63,846 nucleotides of DNA from Treponema sp. GTDB lineage: Bacteria; Spirochaetota; Spirochaetia; Treponematales; Breznakiellaceae. Below, piece after piece: positions 26,684 to 45,510 of the stretch (position 1 is the first letter of the stretch; each line of letters begins with the position of its first letter). The notes under the pieces are model-generated. The model was given only the letters and a program-made list of their open reading frames with translations. It was not told where the DNA came from and did no database searches. The DNA lies in contig JAITCL010000088.1 in the NCBI GenBank assembly GCA_031283105.1, positions 1 through 63,846 on the forward strand, written 5' to 3'. The translations under genes were made by a program, and so were the position numbers.

Positions 26684-26798
26684 AATACCTACTATTTACC
26701 TAGGGAAAAATGATTTTTTTTCAAAAACCTATTGACAGATAAAAAAAGAGATGCTATATCATATAATATACCCATGTTATATAGGTCATATAGGTATT
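26684..26798 (+). promoter_or_regulatory. Promoter and candidate operators of the transporter/nitrogenase-like cluster
   Basis: An AT-rich gap (26584-26825). TTGACA (26732-26737), 17 bases, TATATC (26755-26760) preceded by TGC, an extended -10; predicted start near 26767. Downstream are two tandem copies of ATATAGGT (26779-26786 and 26788-26795, 9-base period) ending TAGGTATT. Upstream, AATACCT (26684-26690) and ACCTAGG (26698-26704) form the inverted counterpart. The sites flank the promoter and suggest a repressor or activator with looping; the regulator is not encoded in the window as far as I can tell. Confidence 0.6.
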
Positions 26799-26825
26799 AT
26801 CAGTAATAGGAAGGACTGGGTAAAA

Positions 26826-27794
26826 ATGGCAAGGGTAACTGAAGGCGGTGTTGGTTTGCGCAAACTGCTCCCTGTTGTATCTCTCGTATTCGCGGTGATT
26901 ATCCAGATCATCGTGGAAAACGCGCAAAAACACCCGGCGGTCAAGACTCCGTATTTTACTTACGCGCTCTTTGCCGGATTGGGAGTATACGCGGTATTTT
27001 TAACCGCTTCTTTCTTCAATAAAAATATTGATACTAAAATCAAATATAAAAGTTATTTTATCGCCGCGGCGGTTTTATTTTTAAATGTACTAAATATTCT
27101 GACAGGAAAATTTGCCATATTGCCGGTCTTATTCTTCCCGTCGCTTGATAAGGTATTCGGCGTGTTTGTCAACGAAAGCATGCTTTTATTGAAGTGCCTG
27201 GGGTATTCATTAAGGCTGCTCGGCTGCGGTTATGTATTCGGCGCGTTGGCGGGTTTAACCACCGGCATCTGCATCGGGTTCAGTAAAAGGGTAAGCTATT
27301 GGATCAGCCCGGTCATACGGGTATTGGGGCCTATTCCGTCAACGGCGTGGATACCGCTGGTACTGGTCAGTTTTCCTTCCGCAGTTTCGGCAAGCAGTTT
27401 CCTGATTGCCTTGTCGGTGTGGTTTCCCACGACCATTATGACGAGCAGCGGAATATCCAACATAAACAATTCTTATTTTGAGGTATCCGCCACTTTGGGC
27501 GCGGACAATTTCAGCAAGATATTCAGAGTCGGCGTGCCTGCCGCCATGCCGCATATATTTTTGGGACTTTTCAACGGTACCTGCGCGTCATTTATTACTT
27601 TGATAACGGCGGAAATGATAGGAGCCAAGTACGGTATCGGTTGGTATATAAATTGGCAAAAGGATATGCTTTCCTATGCCAATGTATACGCGGGGCTGAT
27701 TATTATCGCGGTCGTATTTTCAATTTTAGTAACATTTTTGTTTAAATTACGCGACAAACTTTTGCTGTGGCAAAAAGGGGTCATAAAATGGTAG
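26826..27794 (+). CDS. ABC importer permease (nitrate/sulfonate/taurine type), set 1
   Basis: 322-aa inner-membrane protein with several hydrophobic helices. The C-terminal two thirds is the BPD transporter inner-membrane domain of the SsuC/TauC/NrtB group; the cytoplasmic EAA-type loop is seen as SATLGADNFSKIFRVGVPAAMP (in part, ~225). The first ~110 residues add extra hydrophobic segments. I chose the ATG at 26826 (after GGAAGGA) because an upstream in-frame start at 26751 would precede the predicted transcription start. It is the first gene of the cluster; its stop overlaps the ATPase start by seven bases. Confidence 0.85.
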   Translation: MARVTEGGVGLRKLLPVVSLVFAVIIQIIVENAQKHPAVKTPYFTYALFAGLGVYAVFLTASFFNKNIDTKIKYKSYFIAAAVLFLNVLNILTGKFAILPVLFFPSLDKVFGVFVNESMLLLKCLGYSLRLLGCGYVFGALAGLTTGICIGFSKRVSYWISPVIRVLGPIPSTAWIPLVLVSFPSAVSASSFLIALSVWFPTTIMTSSGISNINNSYFEVSATLGADNFSKIFRVGVPAAMPHIFLGLFNGTCASFITLITAEMIGAKYGIGWYINWQKDMLSYANVYAGLIIIAVVFSILVTFLFKLRDKLLLWQKGVIKW

Positions 27795-28567
27795 GCGCCC
27801 TTAACCTCAAAGATGTCAGGAAACAGTTTGCCGCGCCGGACGGTCAAACCATTGAGGCTCTGCGGAGTGTTTCGCTGGATATTGTTCCCGGTTCGTTTGT
27901 TTCGCTGATCGGCCCTTCGGGATGCGGAAAGACGACATTGCTCAGGCTTATTGCGGGACTGGAAAAACCAAACTACGGCGATCTTTTGCTTGACGGTGAA
28001 AAAATAACCGCGCCGGGCTGTGAGAGAGGGTTTGTTTTTCAAAACCACACGCTGTTCCCCTGGCTGAATATTTATGACAATATCGCTTTTGGTCTGAGGG
28101 TAAGAAAGATATACAAGCGTAAAAAAAATGACGTAAAAAACCTTATACACACTACCGGACTTAACGGTTTTGAAAAGGCGTTTCCTCATCAATTATCGGG
28201 AGGAATGTGCCAAAGGGCGTCTTTGGCAAGGGCTTTGGCCGGACATCCCAAACTGCTGCTGCTTGACGAACCGTTAGGCGCACTGGACGCTTTTACCCGG
28301 ATGAATATGCAGGATGAGATGCTCAAAGTGTGGAACGAACAAAACATGACGATGATTATGGTTACTCATGATGTGGACGAGGCGGTATATATGTCCGACA
28401 AGGTTATCGTTATGACGCCGCGGCCGGGCAAGGTGGGAAAAATTATCGAAATAGAACTGTCGAGACCAAGGGCGCGAAGCGATCCCGAATTTTTAAAGTA
28501 CCGGACTCAAATATTGAATCTGCTGAATTTCGGCGGAAATGTTATAGAACCAAATTATTTTTTATAA
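27788..28567 (+). CDS. ABC importer ATP-binding protein, set 1
   Basis: 259-aa ATPase of the SsuB/TauB/NrtD group. Walker A GPSGCGKTT (~40), Q-loop FQNHTLFPW, signature LSGGMCQRASLARAL (~137) and Walker B LLLLDEPLGALD (~158), H-loop VTHDVDEAV. The start at 27788 follows AAGGGG; an in-frame ATG at 27767 lies deeper in the permease gene. It powers import with the permease upstream and one or both lipoproteins downstream. Confidence 0.9.
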   Translation: MVGALNLKDVRKQFAAPDGQTIEALRSVSLDIVPGSFVSLIGPSGCGKTTLLRLIAGLEKPNYGDLLLDGEKITAPGCERGFVFQNHTLFPWLNIYDNIAFGLRVRKIYKRKKNDVKNLIHTTGLNGFEKAFPHQLSGGMCQRASLARALAGHPKLLLLDEPLGALDAFTRMNMQDEMLKVWNEQNMTMIMVTHDVDEAVYMSDKVIVMTPRPGKVGKIIEIELSRPRARSDPEFLKYRTQILNLLNFGGNVIEPNYFL

Positions 28568-28579
28568 GCGGAGGTTAAT

Positions 28580-29569
28580 ATGAAAAAGAAAAATTGGGCG
28601 TTTGTTGTAACGGTATTATTGGTTACGTTGGCTCTTACCGGCTGCCGTTCAAAAAAGGTCAAAGGCGGCGATTATGTGCTTCGTGTGGGCATTCAGTCTG
28701 ATTTATGTCTTGCGCCCCTTCACATTGCCATCGAAAAAGGATTTTTCGAGGCGGAAGGCTTAAAGTTTGAGGCAATAAAGATAGAGTCCGCCGTAGCCGC
28801 CGAAGCAATAGCCGGTAACCAGATTGACGCGGGCTTTGGGCTGTTGGCTAAATTTATTCAGCCGCTTGAAAACGGTCTCCCTTTGAAATTCACCAGCGGA
28901 ATCCATACCGGCTGTATAAAGATTGTTGTACCGCGCGATTCCGGCGCTCAAAGCCTGTCCGATCTGAGAGGCAAGAACGTTGGTGTCCCCGGCCTTATGG
29001 CTTCCCCCGCGCTTATCGCGAAACGCGCTCTCGCCGCCGCAGGGATCGGCGTAACCGGCGATAATCTTGAAGTAAATTTCATGGCTTATTCAAATGCGGA
29101 TTTGTACATAGCGTTGGAAAAAGGGGCCATTGACGCGGTTGCCGGCGGTGATCCGGGTGTTTCAGTCGCGGAAAGAGAATATAACCTGAAAGTCCTTTTG
29201 GATACCGCTTCGGGTGAATTGTATAAAAACGAATACTGCTGCCTGAGCTTTGTTACTACGAATTTGGCGGAAAAGCATCCTGAAATTGCGGCACAATTTA
29301 CCAGAGCCGTACTCAAGGCAAGCGAATGGGTTGAAAAAAATCCTGTGGAAGCGGCAAAAATACAAATCGAAAAAAATTATATTGCCGGAGACGTGGACTT
29401 TAACGCTTCATTACTCGCCTCTTACAGCTACAAGCCATCCGTGCAGGGCGGTTATGACGCGCTTAAAAATACCATAAACGAGTTCAAAGCCATAAAATTG
29501 TTAAACGATGAAACAAACACGGCAAGGCTGCTTGAAACCTCGTTTGTATTTTTGGACGGCGTTAATTAA
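28580..29569 (+). CDS. Lipoprotein substrate-binding protein 1 (NMT1/SsuA-like)
   Basis: 329-aa type II periplasmic binding fold protein. Residues 1-22 are a lipoprotein signal with lipobox LTGC (Cys22). LRVGIQSDLCLAPLHIAIEKG (in part, ~35-55) and FEAEGLKFE are the start of the NMT1/THI5/SsuA-type fold that binds sulfonates, nitrate, thiamine precursors and similar molecules. Several Cys residues (in the pocket region YCCLSF ~217) are unusual. The ligand cannot be read from sequence. Good Shine-Dalgarno GCGGAGG. Twelve bases after the ATPase gene. Confidence 0.85.
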   Translation: MKKKNWAFVVTVLLVTLALTGCRSKKVKGGDYVLRVGIQSDLCLAPLHIAIEKGFFEAEGLKFEAIKIESAVAAEAIAGNQIDAGFGLLAKFIQPLENGLPLKFTSGIHTGCIKIVVPRDSGAQSLSDLRGKNVGVPGLMASPALIAKRALAAAGIGVTGDNLEVNFMAYSNADLYIALEKGAIDAVAGGDPGVSVAEREYNLKVLLDTASGELYKNEYCCLSFVTTNLAEKHPEIAAQFTRAVLKASEWVEKNPVEAAKIQIEKNYIAGDVDFNASLLASYSYKPSVQGGYDALKNTINEFKAIKLLNDETNTARLLETSFVFLDGVN

Positions 29570-29624
29570 AGGATTTTCGGCAGGAATACTGCCGAACCAC
29601 ATTATAACATTTTGGAGGATTATT

Positions 29625-31602
<1,978 letters not shown>

Positions 31603-31613
31603 GAGTGATGAAT

Positions 31614-33077
31614 ATGGTAAATTTGGATTTATCTTCCGCAGAGGTTCGTGAAAGGCGGCTTAGATCTGTTATTTCATATAACGGAACGGCGAAAGATTTG
31701 GCGGAAAAATCAAAGACAAGATCGTTGTCGATTAATGAGCGTTCATTCGGCCAATGCAGCGACTGTTCGCTGGGGTGCGCTCAATCCCAGACATACCCCT
31801 TAAGAGGCGCCGCAGTCGTCGAACATTCTCCCATTGGCTGTTCTCAGCCCGCGATGTACAAACTGGCCGTAAATGTCTCGAACGAGGCGCGCGGTTTGGA
31901 GGCGCAAAGGCTTAATGTGCTTTCGACTAATCTTACCGAAAAAGATACGGTGTACGGCGGCATTGAAAAATTAAACGAAACAGTACGCGAGGCGAAACGG
32001 CGGTTTAACCCCACGGCAATATTCGTGCAATCATCCTGCGCCGCGGGCATAATAGGCGATGATATTGAAAGCGCGGCGGATAGCCTGCAAAAAGAGCTGG
32101 GCATTCCCGTTGTCCCCGTATTTTGCGAGGGGTTTAAATCGCGGATATGGTCTACAGGGTTTGACGCGGCATATCATGGAATTTTGCGAAAAATAGTAAA
32201 AGAACCCCGCAAAAAACAGGCGGATTTAGTCAATGTGATTAATTTTCAGGGGACTGACACATTCACTCCGTTGCTTGCGCCGCTCGGCTTGCGCGTGAAT
32301 TATGCTATGCCTCTGGCGGGAATTGAACAGTTGGAGCGATTATCGGAAGCCGCGTGTACGGCGCACATTTGCCAAACGCTCGCCACTTATCCCGCCAAAG
32401 CTTTGGAGCAATACTACGGCGTTCCCGAAGTAAAAGCGCCGCCGCCTTTCGGCATAAAATGGACGGACGAGTGGCTTCGTGAAGTGGCAAGATTGACGGA
32501 TAAAACAAACCTTGTGGAGGATTACATATCACGCGAACATAAACGTATTGAAGAACCGCTTGCGGCGGTTCGTGAAAAATTGAAAGGAAAAAAGCTGTAT
32601 ATTTTTGCCGGGGACGCTTACGCGCACTCAATCGCGAATATGCTGATTGATTTTGGAATAGATTTAGTTGGCCTTACGACGCTTCACCACGACCAAATTA
32701 CCGACGGCGGACATGAAATTACCGACAGTCTGGGATACCTGGTGAAAAGCCACGGAAACGTAGAAAATTTCAGCGTATGCAACAAACAACCGTATCAGGT
32801 ATATAAAATTCTGCAAAAGTTAAAGCCGGATATTATGATAGTGCGGCATGAAAATATGGCGGTTTTGGGGGCAAAACTCGGAATCACGACCATCCTTGAC
32901 GGCGACGTGAATATCAGCGCCGGCTACGACGGATTACTCCGTTTGGGCGGGCGGCTTTATCAGGCGACAAGAGCGCAAAAACTTTTGCAAAATGTCGCGC
33001 GGCATTTTATAACGCCGTACAGCGATTGGTGGTTTGCGCAGGATAATCCGTTTTACTTTGAAGGAGGCGTGGTATGA
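31614..33077 (+). CDS. Nitrogenase-like component D (NifD homologue), set 1
   Basis: 487-aa alpha-type subunit. Candidate P-cluster ligands are Cys51 (in CSDCSLGC), Cys76 (HSPIGC) and Cys142 (QSSCAAGIIGDD). Cys253 (HICQTLATYP) aligns without gaps to the NifD cofactor ligand alpha-Cys275, using the following YYGVP/KYGIP as anchor. In contrast, aligned from the shared CEGF (171-174), NifD Gln191 becomes Trp179 and His195 becomes Phe183; no histidine sits at the alpha-His442 position (LDGDVNISAGYDG). So a cluster-binding, non-standard active site is likely. I chose ATG 31614 (8 bases after AGGAG) over GTG 31605 and ATG 31608. It overlaps the K gene by four bases. Confidence 0.9.
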   Translation: MVNLDLSSAEVRERRLRSVISYNGTAKDLAEKSKTRSLSINERSFGQCSDCSLGCAQSQTYPLRGAAVVEHSPIGCSQPAMYKLAVNVSNEARGLEAQRLNVLSTNLTEKDTVYGGIEKLNETVREAKRRFNPTAIFVQSSCAAGIIGDDIESAADSLQKELGIPVVPVFCEGFKSRIWSTGFDAAYHGILRKIVKEPRKKQADLVNVINFQGTDTFTPLLAPLGLRVNYAMPLAGIEQLERLSEAACTAHICQTLATYPAKALEQYYGVPEVKAPPPFGIKWTDEWLREVARLTDKTNLVEDYISREHKRIEEPLAAVREKLKGKKLYIFAGDAYAHSIANMLIDFGIDLVGLTTLHHDQITDGGHEITDSLGYLVKSHGNVENFSVCNKQPYQVYKILQKLKPDIMIVRHENMAVLGAKLGITTILDGDVNISAGYDGLLRLGGRLYQATRAQKLLQNVARHFITPYSDWWFAQDNPFYFEGGVV

Positions 33078-34432
33078 GCGGATACATAGAACAACCCCGG
33101 TTCTCGTGCGCTTTTGCGGCGCAGCATACGGTACTTGCCATTCCCAAAGCCATTCCCATTGCCCACTGCGGTCCGGGATGCGTGGCGAAAACATTTATGT
33201 TTTCCGGCACAGGCGCGGGACATCAGGGGGAAGGATACGCCGGCGGCGGAACGGTAACCTGTACCAATACCAACGAGCATGACGTTGTATTTGGCGGCGG
33301 AGAAAAGCTGAAAAAATTTATAAACGGCGCTTTGAAGGTTCTAAAAGGCGACTTGTACGTGGTAATGTCGGGCTGCACCGCCGGGATTATCGGTGATGAC
33401 GTAGAACAAATTGCCTCTGAATTCGCGCGGGAAGGCGTTCCGGTTATCGGGGTTGATACGTCGGGTTTTCGCGGAAACAGTTATGTTGGACACGAGCTTG
33501 TCCTGAAAGAGATTATAAAACAATTTGTAGACTCAGGCGGTACGGAAGTTAAGGTACGCAAAGGACTGGTAAATGTTTTTGCTTCTGTTCCGCCGCAGAA
33601 CCCATTTTGGCGCGGTGACCTGGAGGAAATCAAAAGAATACTTGAACTTATAGGGCTTGAAGTAAATATACTGTTTGGCGCGTGTTGCGCCGGAGTAAGC
33701 GAATGGCGCGACATTCCCAACGCGGAGTTTAATCTTGTTCTTTCCGCGTGGGTTGGGGAAAGCGCCGTTCAACTGCTGAAAACAAAATATGGAACGCCGT
33801 ATCTGCACATTCCCTATATCCCGACAGGAGCGGCGGCAGCAAGCCGCGTATTGCGCGAGGTCGCGGCGTTTGCCGGAATAAACGGCGAAAAGATCGAAAA
33901 AATTATTGAGCGTGAGGAAAAACGGTTTTACCATTATTTTGTATCGCTGGCTGACTTTTTCGCGGACTTTCGCAACAACATACCCTATGAATTGTATCTC
34001 ATTTCCGACTCGTCATACGCAATAGGTGTTAGTGATTTTTTGGTAAACGAACTTGGATTTACTCCCGAAGGCATATATATTACCGATACGCAGGAGGATT
34101 CCGCAAAGAAAAACATACGGGAAACATTTGGCAGGTTAGGCGATGAATTTGACGGCAAAATCATATTTGAAAATGACGGCGGAAAAATACAGTCCGATAT
34201 ACGGAAACGTCTGAACGGCTCCAAAAAAGCCGCCATATTCGGAAGCCTGTGGGAAGACACGCTTGCCAGGGAAACAGGTAATCTGTCTTACCACTTGAGT
34301 CTTCCCTTGTTAAACGATGTTATAACCAGCCGTTCATTTGCCGGATATAACGGCGGCATACGCCTTATGGAAGAATTATACGCCGGCATATTCCGCCGCC
34401 GTGATGTTGTCAGGCAAACATTGGTGGAATGA
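33074..34432 (+). CDS. Nitrogenase-like component K (NifK homologue), set 1
   Basis: 452-aa beta-type subunit. The three expected P-cluster ligands are Cys12 (RFSCAF), Cys36 (HCGPGC) and Cys101 (SGCTAGIIGDD). Shorter than NifK (about 520), lacking the N-terminal extension of Mo-nitrogenase. It starts within the D stop (ATGA), which favours equimolar D and K. The next gene, a NifX-fold protein, begins five bases after its stop. Confidence 0.9.
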   Translation: MSGYIEQPRFSCAFAAQHTVLAIPKAIPIAHCGPGCVAKTFMFSGTGAGHQGEGYAGGGTVTCTNTNEHDVVFGGGEKLKKFINGALKVLKGDLYVVMSGCTAGIIGDDVEQIASEFAREGVPVIGVDTSGFRGNSYVGHELVLKEIIKQFVDSGGTEVKVRKGLVNVFASVPPQNPFWRGDLEEIKRILELIGLEVNILFGACCAGVSEWRDIPNAEFNLVLSAWVGESAVQLLKTKYGTPYLHIPYIPTGAAAASRVLREVAAFAGINGEKIEKIIEREEKRFYHYFVSLADFFADFRNNIPYELYLISDSSYAIGVSDFLVNELGFTPEGIYITDTQEDSAKKNIRETFGRLGDEFDGKIIFENDGGKIQSDIRKRLNGSKKAAIFGSLWEDTLARETGNLSYHLSLPLLNDVITSRSFAGYNGGIRLMEELYAGIFRRRDVVRQTLVE

Positions 34433-34437
34433 GGCGT

Positions 34438-34833
34438 ATGAAATACAAAATTGCGGTTACAACTTCATCAGGCGGCGCTGTAGACCTGCATTTCGGGCAA
34501 GCCGGTTATTTCTCAATATATACCGTTGACTCTGAAAGCGGCGAATATACTCTTTCAGAAAAGCGGATTATAGAGGAAGTTGACTTTCAAGACGACAACC
34601 AGCCGAAGTCAAACCACGGATGTTCCTGCAATGGCACGAGGGTAGAATATATCGCCAAACTTTTGTCCGATTGTATTTACCTGTTGACAGGTAAAATAGG
34701 CGGCCATCCGCACCGCATTCTGCTTAGTTATGGAATAAGTGCGCTGGAAACGCCTTATCCGTTAGAATACGCGGTCAAGAAGTTGAATGACTATAAAAAA
34801 CAACATCAACAGAAATCAGGAGGATTTTTATGA
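34438..34833 (+). CDS. NifX/NafY-fold cofactor-binding protein, set 1
   Basis: 131-aa protein of the dinitrogenase iron-molybdenum cofactor family (NifX, NafY, NifB C-terminal domain). MKYKIAVTTSSGGAVDLHFGQAGYF is shown here only in part: the IAVTTSSGG start and DLHFGQA motif are typical. The segment NHGCSCNG (~58) adds cysteines that might bind a cluster. Such proteins carry Fe-S cofactor precursors between NifB and the catalytic protein. The ATG at 34438 is preceded by GAGG; an in-frame ATG at 34429 lies within the K gene. Confidence 0.82.
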   Translation: MKYKIAVTTSSGGAVDLHFGQAGYFSIYTVDSESGEYTLSEKRIIEEVDFQDDNQPKSNHGCSCNGTRVEYIAKLLSDCIYLLTGKIGGHPHRILLSYGISALETPYPLEYAVKKLNDYKKQHQQKSGGFL

Positions 34834-34883
34834 CAAGGACAATTTCAATCAGGGAAAGCATACAGGAGCCTGGTCTTGAGTAA
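34830..34883 (+). pseudogene. 17-codon ORF, probable remnant of a duplicated binding-protein gene start
   Basis: Short frame MTRTISIRESIQEPGLE with a strong GGAGG site. Bases 34819-34842 match 29614-29637 (Shine-Dalgarno plus first codons of substrate-binding protein 2) at 23 of 24 positions. The rest of a binding-protein gene is missing. It overlaps the NifX-like stop (ATGA) and the TTG start of the next ATPase, so it could also serve as a translated leader that couples the two. A decayed third binding-protein gene is the simplest reading. Confidence 0.55.
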
Positions 34884-35688
34884 AATAGACGTTAACAATG
34901 TATATGCCGAATATGAAGATAAAAACGGTAAATTCCTGGCGTTAAAGAACATTTCTTTCAGCGTCGGCGAAGGTGAGTTCGTCTCAATTATCGGTTCTTC
35001 AGGCTGCGGGAAAAGTACCCTGCTCAGTATTTTGCAGGGTATTAATTTCCCCTCCGCCGGAAGCGTTACCATAGACGGAAACATCATTACCGGCCCCAGC
35101 ACCAACCGGGGCGTTGTTCTTCAACATTATTCCCTGTTCCCCTGGATGACAGCCCGCACCAACATCGCTTTTGGGTTAAAGCAGGTTAACAGAAAAACGC
35201 CGCGCACGGAACGTTATAAAACCGCCGATGTCTTTTTGAGGAAAGTGGGGCTTTCGAATTTTGGGCATAAGAATCCGTATCAACTGTCCGGGGGTATGCG
35301 GCAGCGTGTCGCTATCGCGCGGGCGTTGGCAATGAATACCGACATATTGTTGATGGATGAACCGTTTGGCGCAATTGACGCAAAAAACAGGGCCAATATG
35401 CAGGAGTTGCTCCTTTCCCTGTGGGAAGGAGACGGTCGGTCGGCAAAAAAAACCGTCGTGTTTGTAACGCACGACATTGACGAAGCGATTTTTTTATCCG
35501 ACCGCATTATTATGCTGACCAACAGTCCGGGGCAGGTTGCGAAAGAATTTGCGGTTACTTTTGGACGTCCGCGCGTCCACGCTACGCTGAGAGAGACAAA
35601 CGCGTATGTTCATCTGCGTAATATGCTTATGGCTTTGTTTTACGATGAAAATAACGGGCCGTCCGCCAATGAGGATTTTATAATATGA
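34876..35688 (+). CDS. ABC importer ATP-binding protein, set 2
   Basis: 270-aa ATPase of the SsuB/TauB/NrtD group, paralogous to the one at 27788. Walker A GSSGCGKST (~37), FPWMTARTNIAFG, signature LSGGMRQRVAIARAL (~137), Walker B ILLMDEPFGAID (~158), and VTHDIDEAIFLSDRI. It probably starts at TTG 34876 (AGGAG eight bases upstream); no ATG/GTG fits the family N terminus. It is followed by its permease with a four-base overlap. No intact binding-protein gene accompanies this set. Confidence 0.88.
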   Translation: MSKIDVNNVYAEYEDKNGKFLALKNISFSVGEGEFVSIIGSSGCGKSTLLSILQGINFPSAGSVTIDGNIITGPSTNRGVVLQHYSLFPWMTARTNIAFGLKQVNRKTPRTERYKTADVFLRKVGLSNFGHKNPYQLSGGMRQRVAIARALAMNTDILLMDEPFGAIDAKNRANMQELLLSLWEGDGRSAKKTVVFVTHDIDEAIFLSDRIIMLTNSPGQVAKEFAVTFGRPRVHATLRETNAYVHLRNMLMALFYDENNGPSANEDFII

Positions 35689-36620
35689 ACCATATCGCCA
35701 AACGCCTTTTTACGGTTACCAACGGCTTATTCATTATATTTTTATTGATTCAACTGATCCCCGACAAAGCCTACCGTATTGCCGACCATCCGCGTTATAC
35801 GTTAATTTTCATGGCGTTTCTGGAAGTTTTATTGTTAGCGGTTTCTTTTGTACCAAAAAAAGACCAAACGCGCCAGGTATTAACCGATATTGCCGGGGTA
35901 ATTTACGGTTTTTTCATTTTTTGGATATTGGCGACAGTCAAGCTGTCCCTGGTGAGCGAAGCGAAACAGGCGGTATTTCCTCCGCCCGGCGCGGTGTTGG
36001 ATAAATTTGCCGCAGACTCAGGCAAGATGCTGGTAAACGTAAAGGATTCGCTCTTACTCATTTTTCAGGGTTATATGATTGCGGTTGTGACAGCCATTCC
36101 GCTCGGCCTGTTTTTGGGGTGGAATATGCGAGTCGGCGCTGTAGCCGGGTATATTTCTAAATTTTTAAGTTCAATTTCTCCCATTGTATACATACCCTAC
36201 GCCATTGTGCTTCTGCCTACTTTTCGCTCGGCATCCATGTTCGTCATTATCGTCGCTTCATTTTGGCCGGCATTTGCCGGCACCATGAGCGGCGTACATA
36301 ATGTGGAGAAACGGCTTATCGATTCGGCAAAGATGCTTTGCGTCAGCAAATTTACCATGCTGTTTCGCATTATTTTGCCCGCCGCTTTGCCGCAAATTTT
36401 TATCGGCTGCAATCAGGGGCTTGGCGTATCCTTCATTCTGCTTGTTTCGGCGGAAATGATAGGCGCGCGCAGCGGGCTTGGTTTTTACGTCAACAATTAC
36501 GCCAATTTCGGAAACTATACCAACGCGCTGGTCGGTGTAATCGCAATCGGTATAGTTGTTTCATGTATTACCTTTTTGTTTAATGCGGCGCAGCGGTTTC
36601 TGCTCCGCTGGAAACAATAA
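35685..36620 (+). CDS. ABC importer permease (nitrate/sulfonate/taurine type), set 2
   Basis: 311-aa inner-membrane protein with hydrophobic helices through its length. The EAA-type coupling loop is SAKMLCVSKFTMLFRIILPAALPQ in part (~210-230), followed by GLGVSFILLVSAEMIGARSGLG in part. Same overall design as the permease at 26826, with extra N-terminal helices. It is presumed to work with ATPase set 2 and to share one of the two lipoproteins at 28580/29625. Confidence 0.87.
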   Translation: MNHIAKRLFTVTNGLFIIFLLIQLIPDKAYRIADHPRYTLIFMAFLEVLLLAVSFVPKKDQTRQVLTDIAGVIYGFFIFWILATVKLSLVSEAKQAVFPPPGAVLDKFAADSGKMLVNVKDSLLLIFQGYMIAVVTAIPLGLFLGWNMRVGAVAGYISKFLSSISPIVYIPYAIVLLPTFRSASMFVIIVASFWPAFAGTMSGVHNVEKRLIDSAKMLCVSKFTMLFRIILPAALPQIFIGCNQGLGVSFILLVSAEMIGARSGLGFYVNNYANFGNYTNALVGVIAIGIVVSCITFLFNAAQRFLLRWKQ

Positions 36621-36662
36621 TGGGAGGGTTGAGCCACGGTGAGTGTTGTACGACGTAGTTCG

Positions 36663-36682
36663 TATAATAATATAGTAACTAT
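36663..36682 (+). promoter_or_regulatory. Candidate -10 box and palindrome upstream of cysK
   Basis: In the 80-base gap before cysK: TATAAT (36663-36668), then ATAGT-A-ACTAT (36672-36682), a perfect 5-bp dyad that would lie at the transcription start. No convincing -35 at 16-18 bases, so an activator may be needed. The cysK ATG follows AAAGGAG. This may give cysK and the second D-K-H set a separate promoter. Confidence 0.35.
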
Positions 36683-36700
36683 TAAAGGAGATGGAGCGTT

Positions 36701-37648
36701 ATGGCACAATACGCGAAAAAGCTGACGGAGCTTATCGGCAAAACGCCGCTTTTACAGCTAACGGATTTTTCGGCAGAGCGGAAACTGGAAGCGAAGTTGA
36801 TTGCAAAACTGGAATATTTTAATCCGCTCAGTTCGGTAAAAGACAGAATCGCCCTGGCGATGATAGAGGACGCTGAAAAAAACGGAAAGCTGGATAAAGA
36901 AACGGTCATTATTGAACCGACCTCCGGCAATACGGGAATAGGTTTGGCCTTTGTCGCCGCTTCCCGCGGATACCGGCTGATTCTTACCATGCCGGATACC
37001 ATGAGCGTGGAACGGCGCAATCTGTTAAAGGCGCTGAACGCCGAGTTGGTACTTACACCGGGCAAGGACGGCATGAAGGGCGCGATTAAAAAGGCGGAGG
37101 AGCTTTCGGTCGCTTTTGAAAAATCTTTTATTCCGCAGCAGTTTAACAATCCCGCCAATGTCCGCGTCCACCGCGAAACCACCGCTGTTGAAATTTGGAA
37201 TGACCTTGACGGCGAGATTGACGTATTTGTGGCGGGGGTTGGAACAGGCGGCACTATCACCGGCGTTGGCGAGGTCTTAAAAGAAAAAAATCCCGCCATT
37301 AAAATTGCGGCGGTGGAGCCTTTTGATTCTCCGGTACTTTCGGGCGGCGCTCCGGGGCCGCATAAAATTCAGGGCATCGGCGCGGGGTTCATTCCGAATG
37401 TGCTGAATACCGGCGTAATTGATGAAATATTTAAAGTGCGAACCGAGCAAGCTTTTGAAACGGCGCAGGATTTGGCGCGGACGGAAGGGCTTTTAGTGGG
37501 CATATCTTCCGCGGCGGCGGCTTTCGCGGCGGCGGAAATTGCGAAGCGTTCTGAATACAAAGGCAAGACCGTTGTGGTTCTGCTGCCGGACACGGGAGAA
37601 AGATACCTTTCCACCCCGCTGTTTGACCGGCTTCAATTAAAAGTATAA
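36701..37648 (+). CDS. cysK: Cysteine synthase (O-acetylserine sulfhydrylase)
   Basis: 315-aa PLP enzyme that makes cysteine from O-acetylserine and sulfide. PLP lysine in SSVKDR (~45), substrate loop TSGNTG (~72), phosphate-binding GTGGTITG (~180) and GISSAAA (~266). N-terminal [10 protein letters not shown] is typical. Its place between the ABC importer and the second nitrogenase-like set, 16 bases before the D2 gene, is the strongest contextual hint that the cluster handles sulfur. A homocysteine- or O-phosphoserine-using relative is possible but less likely. Confidence 0.93.
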
Positions 37649-37664
37649 AGGAAGGATGGTGAAC

Positions 37665-39215
37665 ATGACAAATTATCTGACGCACAAAGCGCCGCCAAAA
37701 AGAGAAGATCGTTTAGGCGCTTGTATTGTGTACGGCGGAACCTTGTGTAATTTAGCGGAGAAGGGGCGCAAATGCGGCTGCCTGTCTGACGGAAGCAGAA
37801 AATTTGAACAAGGTTCGATATGTCTGCTGTTGCCGGGCATATCAATATTAAATTCACTTCCTGACAATGTAAACATTGTTCATGGCGCTGTAGGCTGCGG
37901 AGCCTGCTCTCATTCACAGAACGCCAACGCCCGTTCAGGCACAATGGCGCGAAAGGGAACGGTAAAGGACGCGGTATGGCTGTCAACAGCGTTAAATGAA
38001 ACTGATGTTATATCGGGTGCGGAAAACAAACTGTATGACGCAATTTTGGAAGCCGATTCCCTGTACAGGCCAAAGACCATTACCGTTATCGCAAGCTGCG
38101 TGCCCGCCATTATCGGCGATGATGTGGACGGCGTTGTAGATAGGGCGCAATCACAAACTACGGCGCGGCTTGTTACCGTTCACTGTGAGGGATTTCGGAC
38201 AAAAATATGGGCGACAGCCTATGACGCGGTATACCACGGCATCGTCCGCAGTTTGTTTAAAGACCCCCATATAGAAGAACCTTTTATTAAAGACGGACTG
38301 TACGAACAGCGCATCGCCTATGAACGCGCTCATACCGTGAATTTATTTAACGTATCGTCAATGGGATACGCCGACGAGCAGGAACTTATACGGTACTTAA
38401 ACGCGCTGGAACAAAAAGTAAATGTGTTTCCCAGCTTCGCCGATTCGGACACTATGTATGCCCTGAAATACGCGGGGCTGTCGGTCAGCGTTTGTCCCAC
38501 CCACGACGACTATATTCTGAAATATTTGAACCAGGAATATAATGTTCCGTACATATTAAAACATATGCCTATCGGTATCGCCAACACCAGCGACTGGATA
38601 CGGGACGTTGCGGCAAAGCTGGGCAAGGAAAAACAGGCCGAGCGGCTCATTGAACGGGAAACAGCGGAGCTTGAAGCCGCTCTTGCCAAATACCGCGTCT
38701 TCTTTAAGGGAAAGCGTGTCGTCATCAGTGCCGGCGAATTCCGGGCGTTGGCAACCGCCAACTTGCTGCACGATTTGGGTTTTGAAATAGCGGGCATTCG
38801 TTCCTTTCATCATGATGAATTCGCCAATGTGGAATATGAAAAATTACTGAAAAATGTCAGCGGCGATTTAGCGATTAACATAGCGAATGTACAGCAATTT
38901 GAAGAAGCTAATCTGTTAAACGTAATAAAACCCGATCTTTTTCTGGGACACTGGAACGGCAATTCCACGGCTTCAAAGCTGGGCATACCCTCTCATGTTA
39001 TTTATAACACGGGGCTTGCGTATATCGGTTATCGGGGCGTGTTTGAACTGGCGCGGCGGCTGTACCGCCAAATGTCCAACCCGGTCTTTAACCAGAATTT
39101 GAGCAAATATGCCAGGCTGCCCTATAAGCGGGATTGGTACGGCAAAAATCCGTACAGCTACATTAAATCTGGTCTTGATATACCCGAAGATTACGAAGAA
39201 CAGGAGGAAAAATGA
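37665..39215 (+). CDS. Nitrogenase-like component D (NifD homologue), set 2
   Basis: 516-aa paralogue of the D protein at 31614. Candidate P-cluster ligands Cys53 (SICLLLPG), Cys78 (VHGAVGC) and Cys145 (ASCVPAIIGDD). Cys277 (VCPTHDDYILKYL) aligns gap-free to NifD alpha-Cys275. From the common CEGF (174-177), NifD Gln191 becomes Trp182 and His195 becomes Tyr186. Near the alpha-His442 position there is a His one residue off register (SHVIYNTG). D1 and D2 share an IW-T-DA-YHGI motif that NifD lacks, so both belong to one nitrogenase-like clade. The ATG at 37665 follows AGGAAGG at nine bases; ATG 37656 is too close to it. Confidence 0.9.
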   Translation: MTNYLTHKAPPKREDRLGACIVYGGTLCNLAEKGRKCGCLSDGSRKFEQGSICLLLPGISILNSLPDNVNIVHGAVGCGACSHSQNANARSGTMARKGTVKDAVWLSTALNETDVISGAENKLYDAILEADSLYRPKTITVIASCVPAIIGDDVDGVVDRAQSQTTARLVTVHCEGFRTKIWATAYDAVYHGIVRSLFKDPHIEEPFIKDGLYEQRIAYERAHTVNLFNVSSMGYADEQELIRYLNALEQKVNVFPSFADSDTMYALKYAGLSVSVCPTHDDYILKYLNQEYNVPYILKHMPIGIANTSDWIRDVAAKLGKEKQAERLIERETAELEAALAKYRVFFKGKRVVISAGEFRALATANLLHDLGFEIAGIRSFHHDEFANVEYEKLLKNVSGDLAINIANVQQFEEANLLNVIKPDLFLGHWNGNSTASKLGIPSHVIYNTGLAYIGYRGVFELARRLYRQMSNPVFNQNLSKYARLPYKRDWYGKNPYSYIKSGLDIPEDYEEQEEK

Positions 39216-40546
39216 GCCACTACATTGAACGACCGAGGTTTTTTTGTTCCCTCGGCGGAGCGTTATCCACGCTGGAAGCGCTGCCCGAAACCATACCAAT
39301 CCTCCACTGCGCCGCAGGCTGCGCCGGTAATATTGCGTGGGCGCAAAACGGCGGCAGCGCTCTGCAAGTAGGCGGATACTGCGGCGGTCTTGCCGTTCCC
39401 AGCTCCAATGTGGGCGAACATGACGTGGTATTCGGCGGAACAGACCGGTTGCGCGAACAGATAGAATCCACCCTTGAACTGATGGAAGGGCGGCTGTACG
39501 TGGTAATAACCGGATGCGTAACCGAAATTATCGGGGACGACATTCGTTCCGTAACGGCTGAATTCAGTGACAGAGCCGATATTGTCGCCGCCAATACCGG
39601 CGGATTTAAGGGTAACTCGTATTGGGGCTACGATATTGTTTTATCCGAAATTGTCAGGCGTTATGTGAAAAAGAACGCCGATAAAAAAAAGAAATCGGTC
39701 AATATTTTAGGCATCGTCCCCTACATGGACTGCTTTTGGCGGGGAAACCTTACCGGAGTCAGGCGGCTGTTGGAAAAAATAGGGCTTGAGGTAAATACCT
39801 TCTTTACCGATGAGGACACATTGGACGGCGTTCAAAATTCATCTTCAGCCGCGTTAAACATTGTCCTTTCGGACGTGTATGGTCTGGAAACTGCGAAAAC
39901 CTACGAATCTGCGCATAACGTTCCCTACATTACGGCGACTTTGCCTGTGGGGCCAACCGCCAGCGCGGAACTTTTACGGTCGGTTTCGAAAGCCCTGCAA
40001 TTGGAGGTTGATGTTGAGGCGATTATTGAAAATGAATCCCGGCGTTATTATAAATACCTTACGCCGTTAGTTGACGTGTACAACGACGCTGATTTGCAAA
40101 AGTATTCGGTCATTGTCGGCGACGTAAACTACGCGGTAGCGCTGACCCGCTTTCTTGCCGATGATTTGGGTTGGTCGCCGGCGCTGATTCAGTTTACCGA
40201 CCCGTTAAACGAAGAACAGCAGGCGCAGATTTCCACAAAACTGAAAGGTAATGGGTTGTTTGCCGATCCCAAAGTCGTCTTTGACACCAACGCGTCCGAG
40301 GCGATACGGTACATCAATGAAATGTACCCCAAACGGGAATCGGATAAGTACGCGGAAACCATCGCGCCCGCCTTTGTGGTGGGAAGCTCGCTGGAACGCG
40401 ACCTGGCGTTAAAAATCGGCGCACCGCATTTAAGCGTCAGCTTTCCCGTATCAAACCGCGCGGCGATTAACCGCGGCTATACCGGCTTTGACGGCGGGTT
40501 GACGCTCACCGAAGATTTACTCAGCGCGGCGGTTGCGGCAAGGTAA
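39212..40546 (+). CDS. Nitrogenase-like component K (NifK homologue), set 2
   Basis: 444-aa beta-type subunit paralogous to the one at 33074; both begin MSxYIExPRF. P-cluster ligands Cys12 (RFFCSL), Cys37 (HCAAGC) and Cys102 (TGCVTEIIGDD). Four-base overlap with D2 (ATGA). A 71-base gap follows before the reductase gene, holding a small inverted repeat (TGTTA...TAACA, around 40587-40604). Confidence 0.9.
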   Translation: MSHYIERPRFFCSLGGALSTLEALPETIPILHCAAGCAGNIAWAQNGGSALQVGGYCGGLAVPSSNVGEHDVVFGGTDRLREQIESTLELMEGRLYVVITGCVTEIIGDDIRSVTAEFSDRADIVAANTGGFKGNSYWGYDIVLSEIVRRYVKKNADKKKKSVNILGIVPYMDCFWRGNLTGVRRLLEKIGLEVNTFFTDEDTLDGVQNSSSAALNIVLSDVYGLETAKTYESAHNVPYITATLPVGPTASAELLRSVSKALQLEVDVEAIIENESRRYYKYLTPLVDVYNDADLQKYSVIVGDVNYAVALTRFLADDLGWSPALIQFTDPLNEEQQAQISTKLKGNGLFADPKVVFDTNASEAIRYINEMYPKRESDKYAETIAPAFVVGSSLERDLALKIGAPHLSVSFPVSNRAAINRGYTGFDGGLTLTEDLLSAAVAAR

Positions 40547-40617
40547 GGGCTGGAAGCAATGTCATCACATCAGGCAAATGAATTTTGTTACTTATCCATA
40601 ACAGGAGGAACATAAGT

Positions 40618-41493
40618 ATGGCTAAAAAGATCAAGCAAATCGCGATCTACGGAAAGGGTGGAATTGGCAAATCAACTACCACGTCAAACATTTCGGCGGC
40701 GCTCTCGACGCTCGGCTACAAGGTGATGCAGTTTGGGTGCGACCCTAAAAGCGATTCCACCAATACCCTGCGCGGCGGCGAGTATATCCCGACCGTGCTG
40801 GACAGCCTTCGTGAAAAACCAACGGTAAAGGCAAGCGACGTGATATTTGAAGGATACAACGGTATTTATTGTGTGGAAGCGGGCGGGCCCGCCCCCGGCG
40901 TTGGTTGCGCGGGACGCGGCATCATAACCGCGGTAGAGCTGTTTAAGCAGCAAAACGCCTTTGAAAAACTGGATTTGGATTTTGTCATTTATGACGTTCT
41001 GGGCGACGTTGTATGCGGCGGTTTTGCAGTCCCCATCCGCGAAGGAATCGCGGAACACGTCTTTACCGTTTCTTCCTCGGATTTTATGGCGGTTTACGCC
41101 GCAAACAATCTGTTTAAGGGAATAGCAAAATATTCCAATTCCGGCGGCGCTTTGCTTGGCGGAATTATTGCCAATTCCATTAACAAACCTTACGCGAAAG
41201 ATATTATTGACGATTTCGCATCACGCACAAAAACGCGCATCATGCAATATGTGCCGCGTTCCGTTACGGTAACGCAGAGCGAACTGCGCGGAAAAACCAC
41301 CATTGAGGCCGCGCCGGATTCCAATCAGGCAAAAATCTATATTGAACTTGCCAAGCGTATCGCCGCCCATGAAAACTCCATGACACCGTCTCCTTTGGAC
41401 GCGGCGGAACTGCGGGAATGGGCGGCAGGATGGTCAGACCAGCTTTTGGCTCTTGAAACGGGAGACATTACCGACAAAGGCGAGAACATTTAA
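40618..41493 (+). CDS. Nitrogenase-like reductase (NifH homologue), set 2
   Basis: 291-aa Fe protein with P-loop GKGGIGKS (12-19), Cys97 (GVGCAGRG) and Cys133 (DVVCGGFA). It diverges from set 1 in the partner-docking and C-terminal region: [18 protein letters not shown] replaces the NifH-like [17 protein letters not shown], and CDPKSDST replaces CDPKADST. This suggests each reductase is tuned to its own D-K partner. Start at 40618 follows GGAGG; the frame is open to 40585. The D-K-H gene order differs from H-D-K in set 1. Confidence 0.92.
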
Positions 41494-41495
41494 TT

Positions 41496-41870
41496 ATGCC
41501 CCATATCATCGCGGTATCTACCACCGACGGCAAATTCATACACCGGCATTTTGGAAGAACGGAAAAGTTTTGCATTGTTTCAATAAACGACAATGATTAT
41601 ACCTGCATTGAAACAAGAAAGGTACAGCCGTGCTGTAATAATTTTGAACATCACGAATCCGCTTTTGACAAGGTGCTTCAAATTCTCCATGACTGCGAAG
41701 CGGTTATCGTCGGCAAAATCGGCCCGAGCGCGTACAACTATTTGACGTTTAAGGGAATGAGGGTGCTTGAAGCGCCCGGATTTGTTGACGATGTTTTAAC
41801 GGCATTATGCAAAAACCAGGATCGGTTTTTCACAAGTAAAAGGATGAATACTGATGACGGCAATAGCTGA
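41496..41870 (+). CDS. NifX/NafY-fold cofactor-binding protein, set 2
   Basis: 124-aa member of the dinitrogenase iron-molybdenum cofactor family: IIAVSTTDGKFIHRHFGR (N-terminal strand plus HFGR motif), VIVGKIGPSAYNYL and VLEAPG near the C terminus. A CC pair (QPCCNN ~46) might coordinate a cluster. It starts two bases after the reductase stop and overlaps the nifB-like gene by 17 bases, pointing to a joint role in cofactor assembly or carriage. Confidence 0.83.
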   Translation: MPHIIAVSTTDGKFIHRHFGRTEKFCIVSINDNDYTCIETRKVQPCCNNFEHHESAFDKVLQILHDCEAVIVGKIGPSAYNYLTFKGMRVLEAPGFVDDVLTALCKNQDRFFTSKRMNTDDGNS

Positions 41871-42726
41871 AGTAACGCAAAAACACCCGTGCTTTTCTGT
41901 GGACAGACCGAACAACAAAGGCCGGATTCATCTTCCTGTCAGTCCCGGATGTAATATTGAGTGTAAATTTTGTGACAGAAAAATTAACACGACAGAACAA
42001 TGTCCCGGCGTAACCGCGCAGGTAATCTCGCCTCTTGAGGCTCTTGAAGTTGTGAGGAAATCGCTCGCGCTCTTGCCTGAAATAACAGTTGTAGGTATCG
42101 CGGGCCCCGGTGAAGCGCTGGCTACGCCCTACGCTCTGGAAACTTTTCGCCTGATTGGCAAAGAGTTTCCCGCTTTGATACGCTGTATGAGCACTAACGG
42201 CCTGTTGTTGGATGATTTAGCCGATGAGGTAATCAACGCGGGAGTAAACACGTTAACTGTTACGGTAAATGAAATCTACCCCGCCGAGCAGGCGCGCATT
42301 TGCGCCAGGATTCGATACAAGGATAAAGTGTACGAAGGAACGGATGCCGCCCGTCTGCTTATTTCAAAACAACTTGCGGGAATCCGCAGGATAAAGGCCG
42401 CGGGCATATTGGTAAAAGTGAATACCGTCCTTGTTCCGGGAATAAACGACGGCCATATCGCGGATATAGCCCGTACCGTCAGCGAAGCAGGAGCGGATTT
42501 ATATAATATTATTCCGTTGATTCCCCGCCATGAAATGTCAAATGCCGCCCCTCCGGCCTGTTTTCAGATTGACAAAGCGCGTGTTGAAGCGGAAAAATAT
42601 ATACGGGTTTTCCGTCATTGTCAGCATTGCCGCGCCGACGCTGTCGGAGTTCCGGGCGGCAAAGATTACGGAGAGCGGATTTATTTAAACAGGGTATCGC
42701 ACAGCGCTACGTTTTCGCACGGCTAA
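41854..42726 (+). CDS. nifB: NifB-type radical SAM cofactor-maturation protein
   Basis: 290-aa NifB core without the C-terminal NifX domain. Radical SAM cluster CNIECKFC (Cys33, 37, 40); K-cluster-type cysteines in HPCFS (Cys13) and RHCQHCRADAVG (Cys256, 259). VVGIAGPGEAL, STNGLLLD, LTVTVNEI and KVNTVLVPGINDGH all match NifB. NifB builds the carbide-containing 8Fe core (NifB-co) of nitrogenase cofactors from two 4Fe clusters. Its presence as the last gene of the cluster argues that at least one D-K pair uses a NifB-co-derived cofactor. NifX-like protein at 41496 may act as its carrier. Shine-Dalgarno AAAAGG precedes the ATG. Confidence 0.93.
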   Translation: MTAIAEVTQKHPCFSVDRPNNKGRIHLPVSPGCNIECKFCDRKINTTEQCPGVTAQVISPLEALEVVRKSLALLPEITVVGIAGPGEALATPYALETFRLIGKEFPALIRCMSTNGLLLDDLADEVINAGVNTLTVTVNEIYPAEQARICARIRYKDKVYEGTDAARLLISKQLAGIRRIKAAGILVKVNTVLVPGINDGHIADIARTVSEAGADLYNIIPLIPRHEMSNAAPPACFQIDKARVEAEKYIRVFRHCQHCRADAVGVPGGKDYGERIYLNRVSHSATFSHG

Positions 42727-43805: not shown

Positions 43806-44912
43806 ATGAATATTGATGAACTGAATCAGGAAATAGACGGCATTGACGACCAGTTGTTGAAACTGTTTGAACGGCGCATGGAGCTTGCCCAGCCGGTCAT
43901 GGACACGGAACGCCAGCGCAAAATCCTGTACCGGCTTTGCGAACAGGCGCGGCCTGAATTGGCGGGATATGTCAAAGTTTTGTTTTCTTCCCTTTTCGAG
44001 ATAAGCCGCAGTCATCAAAAAGGGCAGAGCCATTATGATTCGGCGGTAAAAAAACTGCTTGACGACGCGGCTGCGCACACGCCCGATAGTTTCCCTTCAC
44101 GGGCTGCTGTTGCCTGTCAGGGCGTGGAAGGCGCGTATTCCCAGGCCGCCTGTGACAAACTGTTTTCACCGGCGGACATCACCTATTTCAACAGTTTTGA
44201 GGGAGTTTTTCAGGCGGTAGACAGCGGCCTGTGCCGTTTCGGAGTAGTGCCGCTGGAAAACAGTTCCGCCGGTTCGGTCAATGAAGTGTATGAGCTTATG
44301 AATCGTTACCGCTTCTATATTGTGCGCAGTATAAAACTGCCGATAACGCATACATTACTGGCGGCGCCCGGCGCGAAGTTAGACGACATCAAAGAAGTGT
44401 TTTCACATGAGCAGGCTATCCGCCAATGCAGCCGGTTTTTAAAATCATGGAACGGCGTTAAAATAACCGAGTGCGCGAACACGGCAATGGCCGCAAAACA
44501 GGCGGCAAGTTCAGGGCGGACAGACGCAGCGGTTATCTCATCGCGCGATTGCGCCGAGTTGTACGGCTTGTCCGCGCTGTCATACAATATTCAAAACACC
44601 GACAACAATTATACGCGCTTCATCTGTATATCAAAAAAGCCGGAAATATATCCGGGGGCGCATAAAACCAGCCTTATCCTGGCGCTAAAACACAAACCCG
44701 GCTCTCTGTACCATGTCCTCGCCAAATTTTACGCGCACGGAATCAACATGAACAAACTGGAGAGCCACCCCATCTCCGGTCAGAATTTTGAATTTCTTTT
44801 TTATTTTGACATTGACACACCGGTTATTTCCGATGAGTTAAAACAGGTACTGACCGAACTTGAACAGGAAACCGATATGTTCAGTTTTCTGGGGACGTAT
44901 CAGGAATTTTAG
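43806..44912 (+). CDS. pheA: Prephenate dehydratase with degenerate chorismate mutase domain
   Basis: 368-aa P-protein. Residues ~1-70 resemble an AroQ chorismate mutase, ~100-275 are prephenate dehydratase (ACQGVEGAYSQAACDKLF, NSFEGVFQAVDSG, PLENSSAGSVNE and the TRF motif in NNYTRF), and ~285-365 are an ACT domain (ESHPISGQNFEF). The mutase part appears to lack about 12 residues: LAQPVMDTERQRKIL follows directly where E. coli has EVGKAKLL..., removing the catalytic lysine equivalent to Lys39. The ACT ESRP motif is ESHP. The dehydratase assignment is firm; mutase activity is doubtful. Confidence 0.93.
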   Translation: MNIDELNQEIDGIDDQLLKLFERRMELAQPVMDTERQRKILYRLCEQARPELAGYVKVLFSSLFEISRSHQKGQSHYDSAVKKLLDDAAAHTPDSFPSRAAVACQGVEGAYSQAACDKLFSPADITYFNSFEGVFQAVDSGLCRFGVVPLENSSAGSVNEVYELMNRYRFYIVRSIKLPITHTLLAAPGAKLDDIKEVFSHEQAIRQCSRFLKSWNGVKITECANTAMAAKQAASSGRTDAAVISSRDCAELYGLSALSYNIQNTDNNYTRFICISKKPEIYPGAHKTSLILALKHKPGSLYHVLAKFYAHGINMNKLESHPISGQNFEFLFYFDIDTPVISDELKQVLTELEQETDMFSFLGTYQEF

Positions 44913-44950
44913 GTGTGGATAAAATGAGAGACTTCCGTTTGACAATTATA

Positions 44951-44979
44951 TAGACATGATACCAACGGAAAGTTATAAT
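44951..44979 (+). promoter_or_regulatory. Predicted promoter of ridA
   Basis: TAGACA (44951-44956), 17 bases, TATAAT (44974-44979), five bases before the ATG. No Shine-Dalgarno sequence; transcription should start at or next to the start codon. Confidence 0.55.
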
Positions 44980-44984
44980 TAACC

Positions 44985-45362: not shown

Positions 45363-45418
45363 GGTGTATTAGGGGCGTGTAGACTGAGTTAGGCGAAATT
45401 TGTGTTGCATTTATTACA

Positions 45419-45463: not shown

Positions 45464-45510
45464 ATTCAAATCAAATTTTTAAAATCTTAAAATAACAGAT
45501 CATAGTAATA

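Follow-up and report, generated by a model that had tools for sequence, protein, structure and literature searches.

The 63,846-nt contig JAITCL010000088.1 from the genome of a Treponema sp. (Breznakiellaceae, Spirochaetota; assembly GCA_031283105.1), the whole of which is called the window below, carries two nitrogenase-like systems in one run of genes. Sixteen genes, all on the + strand and with gaps between neighbours of -62 to +80 bp, fill positions 26751–42726; they code for two sets of a NifH-like reductase (H) and the subunits D and K, two NifX-fold proteins (X1 and X2), a NifB-type enzyme, ATP-binding cassette (ABC) importer sets A and B and a cysteine synthase, CysK. We give somewhat better than even chances to the reading that the whole run serves organosulfur assimilation in an anaerobic spirochaete, by means of two nitrogenase-like C-S bond reductases that each hold an [Fe8S9C]-cluster; D1 would release methanethiol and D2 would release sulfide or a thiol for CysK. 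Product and substrate of D2 are the main uncertainty, as the product could be sulfide, methanethiol or even ammonia. Related clusters are already in print (sources are cited by PMC number), and the cluster in the window is a variant that combines a methylthio-alkane reductase (MAR) system with a D2 system. The genes, in order, are the following.

26751..27794, + strand: ABC importer permease of set A, TauC/SsuC/NtrB-like (BPD_transp_1 68 bits; best NCBIfam models ntrB, SaoP and TauC, all below cut-off)
27767..28567, + strand: ABC importer ATPase of set A (ABC_tran; SaoA 279, ntrCD 244 and TauB 241 bits, all below cut-off)
28580..29569, + strand: substrate-binding protein 1, NMT1/SsuA family (NMT1 84 bits; SsuA_fam 106 bits, below cut-off)
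29508..30713, + strand: substrate-binding protein 2, SsuA family, probable partner of set B and the D2 module (NMT1_2 63 bits)
30685..31602, + strand: H1, NifH-like reductase of the MAR cassette (TIGR01287 457 bits, cut-off 394)
31605..33077, + strand: D1, MarD-type catalytic subunit (468 bits and 46.7% identity to MarD, 9fmg_A)
33074..34432, + strand: K1, MarK-type subunit (399 bits and 43.9% identity to MarK)
34429..34833, + strand: X1, cofactor-binding protein of the NifX/NifB-C-terminal fold (PF02579 45 bits)
34876..35688, + strand: ABC importer ATPase of set B (ABC_tran)
35685..36620, + strand: ABC importer permease of set B (BPD_transp_1 65 bits)
36701..37648, + strand: cysK, O-acetylserine sulfhydrylase (cysteine synthase A; TIGR01139 453 bits, cut-off 351)
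37656..39215, + strand: D2, catalytic subunit of the second, non-MAR clade
39212..40546, + strand: K2, partner of D2 (252 bits and 34.6% identity to MarK)
40585..41493, + strand: H2, NifH-like reductase of the D2 module (TIGR01287 405 bits, cut-off 394)
41496..41870, + strand: X2, protein of the NifX/NifB-C-terminal fold (PF02579 78 bits)
41854..42726, + strand: NifB-type radical SAM cofactor synthase, short form without a NifX domain (TIGR01290 259 bits, below the full-length cut-off of 344)

Every gene named in the first-pass annotation is present on the + strand, as an open frame with a family match (Pfam scores of the H, D and K genes were 217–424 bits); the content that it gave to the cluster stands, but the first importer gene begins at 26751 and not at 26826. 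The true starts of H1 and H2 probably lie downstream of those of the longest frames, close to 30745 and 40618, at which the match to NifH sets in.

Judged by its sequence, D1-K1 is a MAR-clade enzyme. In comparison with all solved structures two MarD entries came on top for D1 (468 and 467 bits; next 136 bits) and MarK for K1 (399 bits; next 82 bits). In a carefully built tree of 56 D proteins D1 grouped with R. rubrum MarD (support 94/74 for a 10-row clade and 100/98 for a 16-row clade). D1 retains Cys66, Cys91, Cys158, Cys270, Trp195, Phe199, His375 and Arg428-His429; K1 retains three P-cluster Cys, and all six P-cluster Cys are present across the two subunits. His194 is replaced by Ile and Cys73 by Ser. 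The Arg428-His429 pair, a possible MAR hallmark (PMC12552129), was found in 10/10 MAR rows, D1 of the window included. With R. rubrum MarBHDK (structures 9fmg and 9d9u; PMC12552129) the window thus shares the D-K clade, the ligands of both metal clusters, the Arg428-His429 loop and a NifB-type enzyme; in contrast to that system it adds NifX-fold proteins, two importers and a second H-D-K set.

The second pair is of another type. D2 is 29.2% identical to MarD and 30.7% identical to D1; K2, with all three P-cluster Cys, is 34.6% identical to MarK. The D2 clade stood apart from MAR in the careful tree (97/97 for 23 rows) as well as in a larger one (96 for 77 rows); the careful tree holds 23 of the 77 D2 rows and omits the MAR-like rows L180_5856 and L111_1474, row L056_12415 (long branches) and two rows patterned like the sulfonate reductase Isr. 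D2 retains the ligands of the P-cluster and of the [Fe8S9C]-cluster, Cys270 included, and the loop His is present in 77/77 rows of its clade. As the column of the MAR-hallmark Arg428 is empty in 77/77 rows, D2 was not filed as a Mar; the loop His itself falls in the Arg428 column in small alignments and in the His429 column, with a gap before it, in larger ones. Furthermore, D2 has Tyr at the position of MarD Phe199, and its cofactor loop is shorter by one residue than that of MarD. The earlier reading, which named MAR among the group IV enzymes, is refined: D1-K1 falls in the MAR clade, and D2-K2 belongs to a separate clade without the hallmark Arg. A third D type was seen in spirochaete relatives (L037:7970-9412, L042:4376-5848, L047:13450-14916, L117:8890-10338); it keeps the P-cluster Cys and Cys270, its cofactor-binding loop is deleted (6/6 rows) and Cys or His replaces Trp195.

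Aligned with one NifD reference, none of the 77 D2 rows has His at the His442 column, all 77 have Tyr at His195, and the Gln191 column holds Gln in 8/77 rows and Trp in D2 of the window; the His442 column is empty in MAR rows, which have Phe and Trp at the columns of His195 and Gln191. A search of the whole genome (94.6% complete) with PF00148, nitrogenase component 1, matched D1, K1, D2, K2 and no other gene, in agreement with the absence of nifE and nifN noted earlier; NifH matches were two strong ones and four further weak or partial ones. Of two HMGL-type genes upstream of the cluster, one scores as a citramalate synthase and the other as a 2-isopropylmalate synthase, and neither reaches the cut-off for NifV (nifV was not searched for in the rest of the genome), and no PII-type gene turned up among the genes scanned around the cluster. 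The D trees, the missing His442 and His195 and the missing NifEN bear out the view that this is not a canonical nitrogenase.

One could still argue for N2 fixation by D2-K2, or by both pairs, as group IV-A nitrogenases that need no NifEN; this has been claimed for Endomicrobium proavitum, whose NfaDK is placed in subgroup IV-A and whose cells incorporate 15N2 (PMC9147875). MarHDK-like genes near type I mlp gene clusters are also called group IV-A (PMC10418091), which fits the D2 clade; by this linkage the D2 clade would be the same as that group. In addition, one title speaks of N2 reduction by L-cluster-bound assembly proteins (PMC13245594). The residues at the His442 and His195 columns and the linkage of D2 to cysK argue against N2 fixation, as does the reported inability of MAR, which has the same cluster, to reduce N2 (PMC12552129). 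In two genomes with D2, G430 and G459, PF00148 also matched four more consecutive genes with high scores, a nifDKEN-like run. The nif-like genes of P. sabinae, which may or may not be of the D2 clade, were reported as not regulated by ammonium and unable to complement nifD (PMC4246453). We regard N2 fixation by D2-K2 as quite improbable.

Two D-K pairs with one NifB resemble nifDK plus nifEN, so that D2-K2 might be a NifEN-like assembly scaffold for D1-K1. However, D2 keeps all cluster ligands, comes with a separate H, importer and cysK, and is also found where no MAR pair is adjacent (e.g. in L158 and L161); the MAR cluster is described as free of Mo and homocitrate, which are what NifEN contributes (PMC12552129). 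We rejected the scaffold role, to which we give very little credence, on the ligands, the separate H and the independent occurrence. Of the two options proposed earlier for the twin pairs, two substrate specificities are favoured over a catalytic pair with a scaffold, as no cluster ligand is lost from either pair and D2-type pairs are found without a neighbouring MAR pair.

The Ssu/Tau-type importers would fit an isethionate or sulfonate reductase of the Isr type that releases sulfite, since Isr works with SsuCAB; IsrBHDK of Rhodobacter capsulatus is a nitrogenase-like system of sulfur assimilation with an SsuABC importer, as in the window (PMC11423573). Yet Isr is described as lacking two of the three D-subunit P-cluster Cys as well as Cys275, with a radical SAM partner unlike NifB and sulfite as proposed product (PMC11423573), whereas D1 and D2 keep all ligands. 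Isr-patterned H-D-K genes, without Cys66, Cys158 and Cys270, were observed in two single-contig spirochaete genomes (L054:8488-12161 and L088:7478-11115); they lie apart in the D tree, with a gene of the sulfite/nitrite reductase family NIR_SIR about 1 and about 7 kb away. In contrast, no NIR_SIR gene was found in the host genome, and 41/60 genomes of the family with a D2-clade gene, among which many are incomplete, gave none either. An Isr-type D2-K2 was rejected on its ligands, with which the missing sulfite reductase agrees, and it would come as a great surprise.

What surrounds the D genes of different classes points to sulfur. Within 3 kb of 97 genes of the D2 clade we found cysK in 60 cases, a URO-D-type methyltransferase in 35, an ABC ATPase in 33, H in 32, nifB in 24, a corrinoid protein in 22, X in 14, RACo in 8 and metY in 4. 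The same count for 13 MAR genes (window included) gave ABC 12, X 10, H 6, metY 1 and neither cysK nor URO-D; for 22 MAR-like genes it gave cysK 10, nifB 9, ABC 8, H 7, X 7 and metY 3, and for 11 genes of the loop-less D type no cysK. As 30 of the 97 D2 genes have <3 kb on one side, the figure for the other 67 is 46 with cysK; an alternative count put cysK within 9 kb in 64/96 D2 loci. It is this linkage that makes sulfide or a thiol the expected product of D2. A division of labour between MAR with metY and D2 with cysK, an idea that came from G430, where metY lies immediately upstream of a MAR-like D gene, was rejected as not general on the metY counts given above.

The neighbourhood would also suit another thioether as the substrate of D2-K2, with methanethiol as product; sulfide would then arise later, by corrinoid methyltransferases where present, or CysK would use methanethiol. 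The URO-D-type methyltransferases, corrinoid protein and RACo that, like cysK, often accompany the D2 clade are components of the type I mlp cluster, whose proposed pathway takes its methyl group from methanethiol (PMC10418091), and Trp195 is kept in 28/77 D2 rows, that of the window among them. But the cluster in the window differs from the type I mlp cluster in having no gene for a methyltransferase, corrinoid protein or RACo, with a MAR cassette instead. The host genome gave 0 RACo candidates, so there is probably no activated corrinoid step in the host, yet cysK stays with D2. CysK enzymes normally use sulfide. We hold this alternative possible, though unlikely.

By sequence identity importer B goes with D2 loci. 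A Peptococcaceae metagenome-assembled genome (MAG; L161) has an uninterrupted importer set next to a D2-clade gene, which binding protein 2, ATPase B and permease B of the window match at 72, 78 and 75% identity; with genes that adjoin MAR the values do not exceed 27, 54 and 38%. Relatives keep binding protein, ATPase and permease contiguous (L159, L160, L161, L087, L233); in the window H1-D1-K1-X1 parts binding protein 2 from ATPase B, and the MAR H-D-K-X cassette appears to have been inserted into the importer operon of D2. Of the two transport sets described earlier, set A is complete (26751–29569), but the second binding protein (29508–30713) is separated from ATPase B and permease B (34876–36620). 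Relatives of set A occur in MAR-type and D2-type loci alike. Neither binding protein gave a substrate through solved structures: for binding protein 1 the nearest were weak matches to unassigned or pyrimidine-precursor proteins, and none was found for binding protein 2 at E 0.001. With the NCBIfam models SaoP, SaoA and SaoX, permease A, ATPase A and binding protein 1 scored near or above their Tau/Ssu values, all below cut-off. The cysK gene of the window is 87% identical to that beside D2 in Sporobacter termitidis.

H2 is up to 85% identical to H genes of D2 loci, up to 80% to MAR-like and at most 51% to MAR ones; relatives of H1 with 78–81% identity adjoin MAR and MAR-like genes. NifB makes the carbide-centred cofactor core, and NifX-fold proteins may carry it. 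The NifB-type protein of the window has the motifs CxxxCxxC, HPC, AGPG, TxTxN and Cx2CRxDAxG.

The host genome (2.79 Mb in 167 contigs, 94.6% complete and 7.1% contaminated) holds the window as one entire contig, C101. The contig fits its bin in spite of the contamination, since its genes for AspRS and LeuA, which flank the cluster, code for proteins with 86% and 87% identity to those of genomes of the same genus. No sulfite reductase (NIR_SIR) gene was found in the host genome, nor in G459, a genome of the same genus rated 100% complete; there was one in G430 and there were two in G212, and both these genomes carry Isr-patterned H-D-K. For phosphoadenosine phosphosulfate (PAPS) reductase the host gave one match below cut-off, G459 none and G430 two clear ones. 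With no NIR_SIR gene and no PAPS reductase above cut-off, the host seems to be unable to assimilate sulfate and must obtain its reduced sulfur in another way. Together with the cysK linkage and the Ssu/Tau-type importers, this upholds the sulfur context that had been proposed from the sequence. As a general marker of D2 genomes the lack of sulfite reductase was rejected: NIR_SIR was present in 19/60 D2-clade genomes of the family and in 27/135 others (Fisher p 0.10), where the 60 are those whose best D2 match reaches 1e-100 and fragments (G329, G406) are left uncounted. D2 does not seem to need sulfite reductase. Strong PF01053 enzymes are encoded on contigs C95 and C47.

Several observations weigh against two dedicated C-S bond reductases with CysK as the outlet of D2. 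The linkage with cysK is not exclusive to D2: it is seen in 10/22 MAR-like genes and, within 6 kb, in 5/13 MAR genes (window, L101, L120, L123, L216), although a D2-clade pair is also present in four of these, L120 being the exception. Conversely, 37/97 D2 genes have no cysK within 3 kb, and as the linkage rows are related by descent, Fisher values overstate the association; metY linkage is weak in all classes. Corrinoid methyltransferase genes, which the cluster in the window does not have, accompany the D2 pair in many relatives, and D2 of the window may therefore have another partner pathway than theirs. H1-type genes of about 80% identity were also found beside D2-clade genes in L223, L224 and L228 (the median for D2 loci is 50%), so the H1 assignment is looser and H assignments are not strict. 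The NifB-type protein reads EQCP for ExRP; Arg was found in 37 of 40 non-identical NifB-type proteins compared, two gave no pattern match, and the window has the sole Cys. The host has three CysK-class genes, one in the cluster and two on contig C47. Finally, genes missing from the host genome could be assembly gaps.

If D1-K1 and D2-K2 are two C-S bond reductases, organic sulfur would enter by importers A and B. NifB would make the [Fe8S9C]-cluster, X1 and X2 may carry it, and a NifEN step should not be needed; H1 and H2 dimers would pass ATP-driven electrons by way of the P-cluster to the [Fe8S9C]-cluster of D1-K1 and D2-K2. By analogy with MAR, D1-K1 would cut methyl thioethers to methanethiol and a hydrocarbon. 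D2-K2, with its different pocket, would cut a sulfur compound imported by binding protein 2 and importer B, and CysK would join the released sulfide (or thiol) to O-acetylserine to give cysteine. One could speculate on a relay in which D1-K1 makes methanethiol and D2-K2 reduces it, or another small thiol, to a hydrocarbon and H2S for CysK, in place of the corrinoid methyltransferases found with D2 in many relatives; such a relay is distinctly unlikely.

The D2 clade is widespread and spans several phyla. Among 296 evenly sampled Spirochaetota genomes 22 match D2 at 1e-20 (matches of any class, the own genome counted); in the family of the host 89/195 genomes match at 1e-15, of which 60 reach 1e-100 and belong to the D2 clade proper. 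A scan of GTDB contigs gave at least 579 confirmed relatives of D2, the taxa of which were taken from the best 80. The closest relative among the matches listed is from Sporobacter termitidis DSM 10068 (78%), next to Oscillospiraceae and Peptococcaceae MAGs (75–77%); others among those matches are from Clostridium polyendosporum, Geobacteraceae, Pelosinus, Ruminiclostridium, Acetivibrio, Paenibacillus, Planctomycetaceae, Synergistaceae and others. D2 of the window nests with Bacillota sequences (five rows, support 100) and lies next to the other spirochaetal ones rather than among them, a placement suggestive of transfer between gut bacteria. Genomes of other phyla, a Candidatus Adiutrix MAG (L233) and a Massilibacillus MAG (L216), likewise have a MAR set and a D2-clade set in one run, so the joint arrangement is not unique to the window.

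Two spirochaetal systems come near to this arrangement. In Pillotina corrugata, a termite spirochaete of the Breznakiellaceae, the family that is home to most termite-gut spirochaetes, a group IV nifDK is reported in an operon with a cysteine synthase gene; its H, B and D-K genes are scattered, whereas the window has one run together with a MAR-type system and importers (PMC13067680). Plasmid pTS2 of Treponema saccharophilum (NZ_AP025290.1) holds metY, cysK, NifB, NifX, NifH, a K-D pair, an importer and a MAR-clade D-K-X in one region; unlike D2, the second pair is MAR-like, and there is one NifH in the 33-kb stretch examined. pTS2 is a 382-kb plasmid of a cultured spirochaete, and its nitrogenase-like region lies near a type I-C CRISPR-Cas system. 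No description of a joint MAR and D2 cluster was found in titles and abstract openings, which is no proof of absence, with subscription literature thinly covered.

The cluster begins 167 bp after the end of leuB. Downstream, a gene for 3-deoxy-D-arabino-heptulosonate 7-phosphate synthase begins 54 bp after it, followed by a chorismate mutase/prephenate dehydratase gene. Both are adjacent in G463, a genome of the same genus (93% and 88%), on an 18.8-kb contig (L248) with no match to any cluster protein at 1e-15; as this pair stands there without the cluster, the right edge is probably between 42726 and 42781. Promoter and terminator scans were at chance level (34 versus 29.2 expected and 29 versus 29.1) and gave nothing on operon limits; an Rfam search of 22000–48000 gave no RNA element. 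Elsewhere in the window, the G+C content drops to 0.385 at 44001–48000 (0.45–0.53 in the remaining 4-kb blocks), a 686-aa tetratricopeptide repeat protein is encoded at 46565–48625, and there are two acetolactate synthase large subunits (18252–19958 and 48861–50510), both above the NCBIfam cut-off.

The D2 clade can be recognized by a residue signature (loop His present, no Arg428, Tyr in place of Phe199) and by cysK as a frequent partner gene; with Sporobacter termitidis DSM 10068 this widespread nitrogenase-like clade gains a named strain in the group nearest to D2 of the window. Whether such enzymes scavenge sulfur or fix N2 bears on the reading of nifD/nifK-like genes in gut metagenomes, and also on anaerobic sulfur scavenging, microbial release of methane and ethylene, and the origin of nitrogenase cofactors. 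Should the relay be true, D2 would be the founding member of sulfide-releasing [Fe8S9C]-cluster desulfurases present in several phyla, and termite guts would have a biological source of methane without methanogens.

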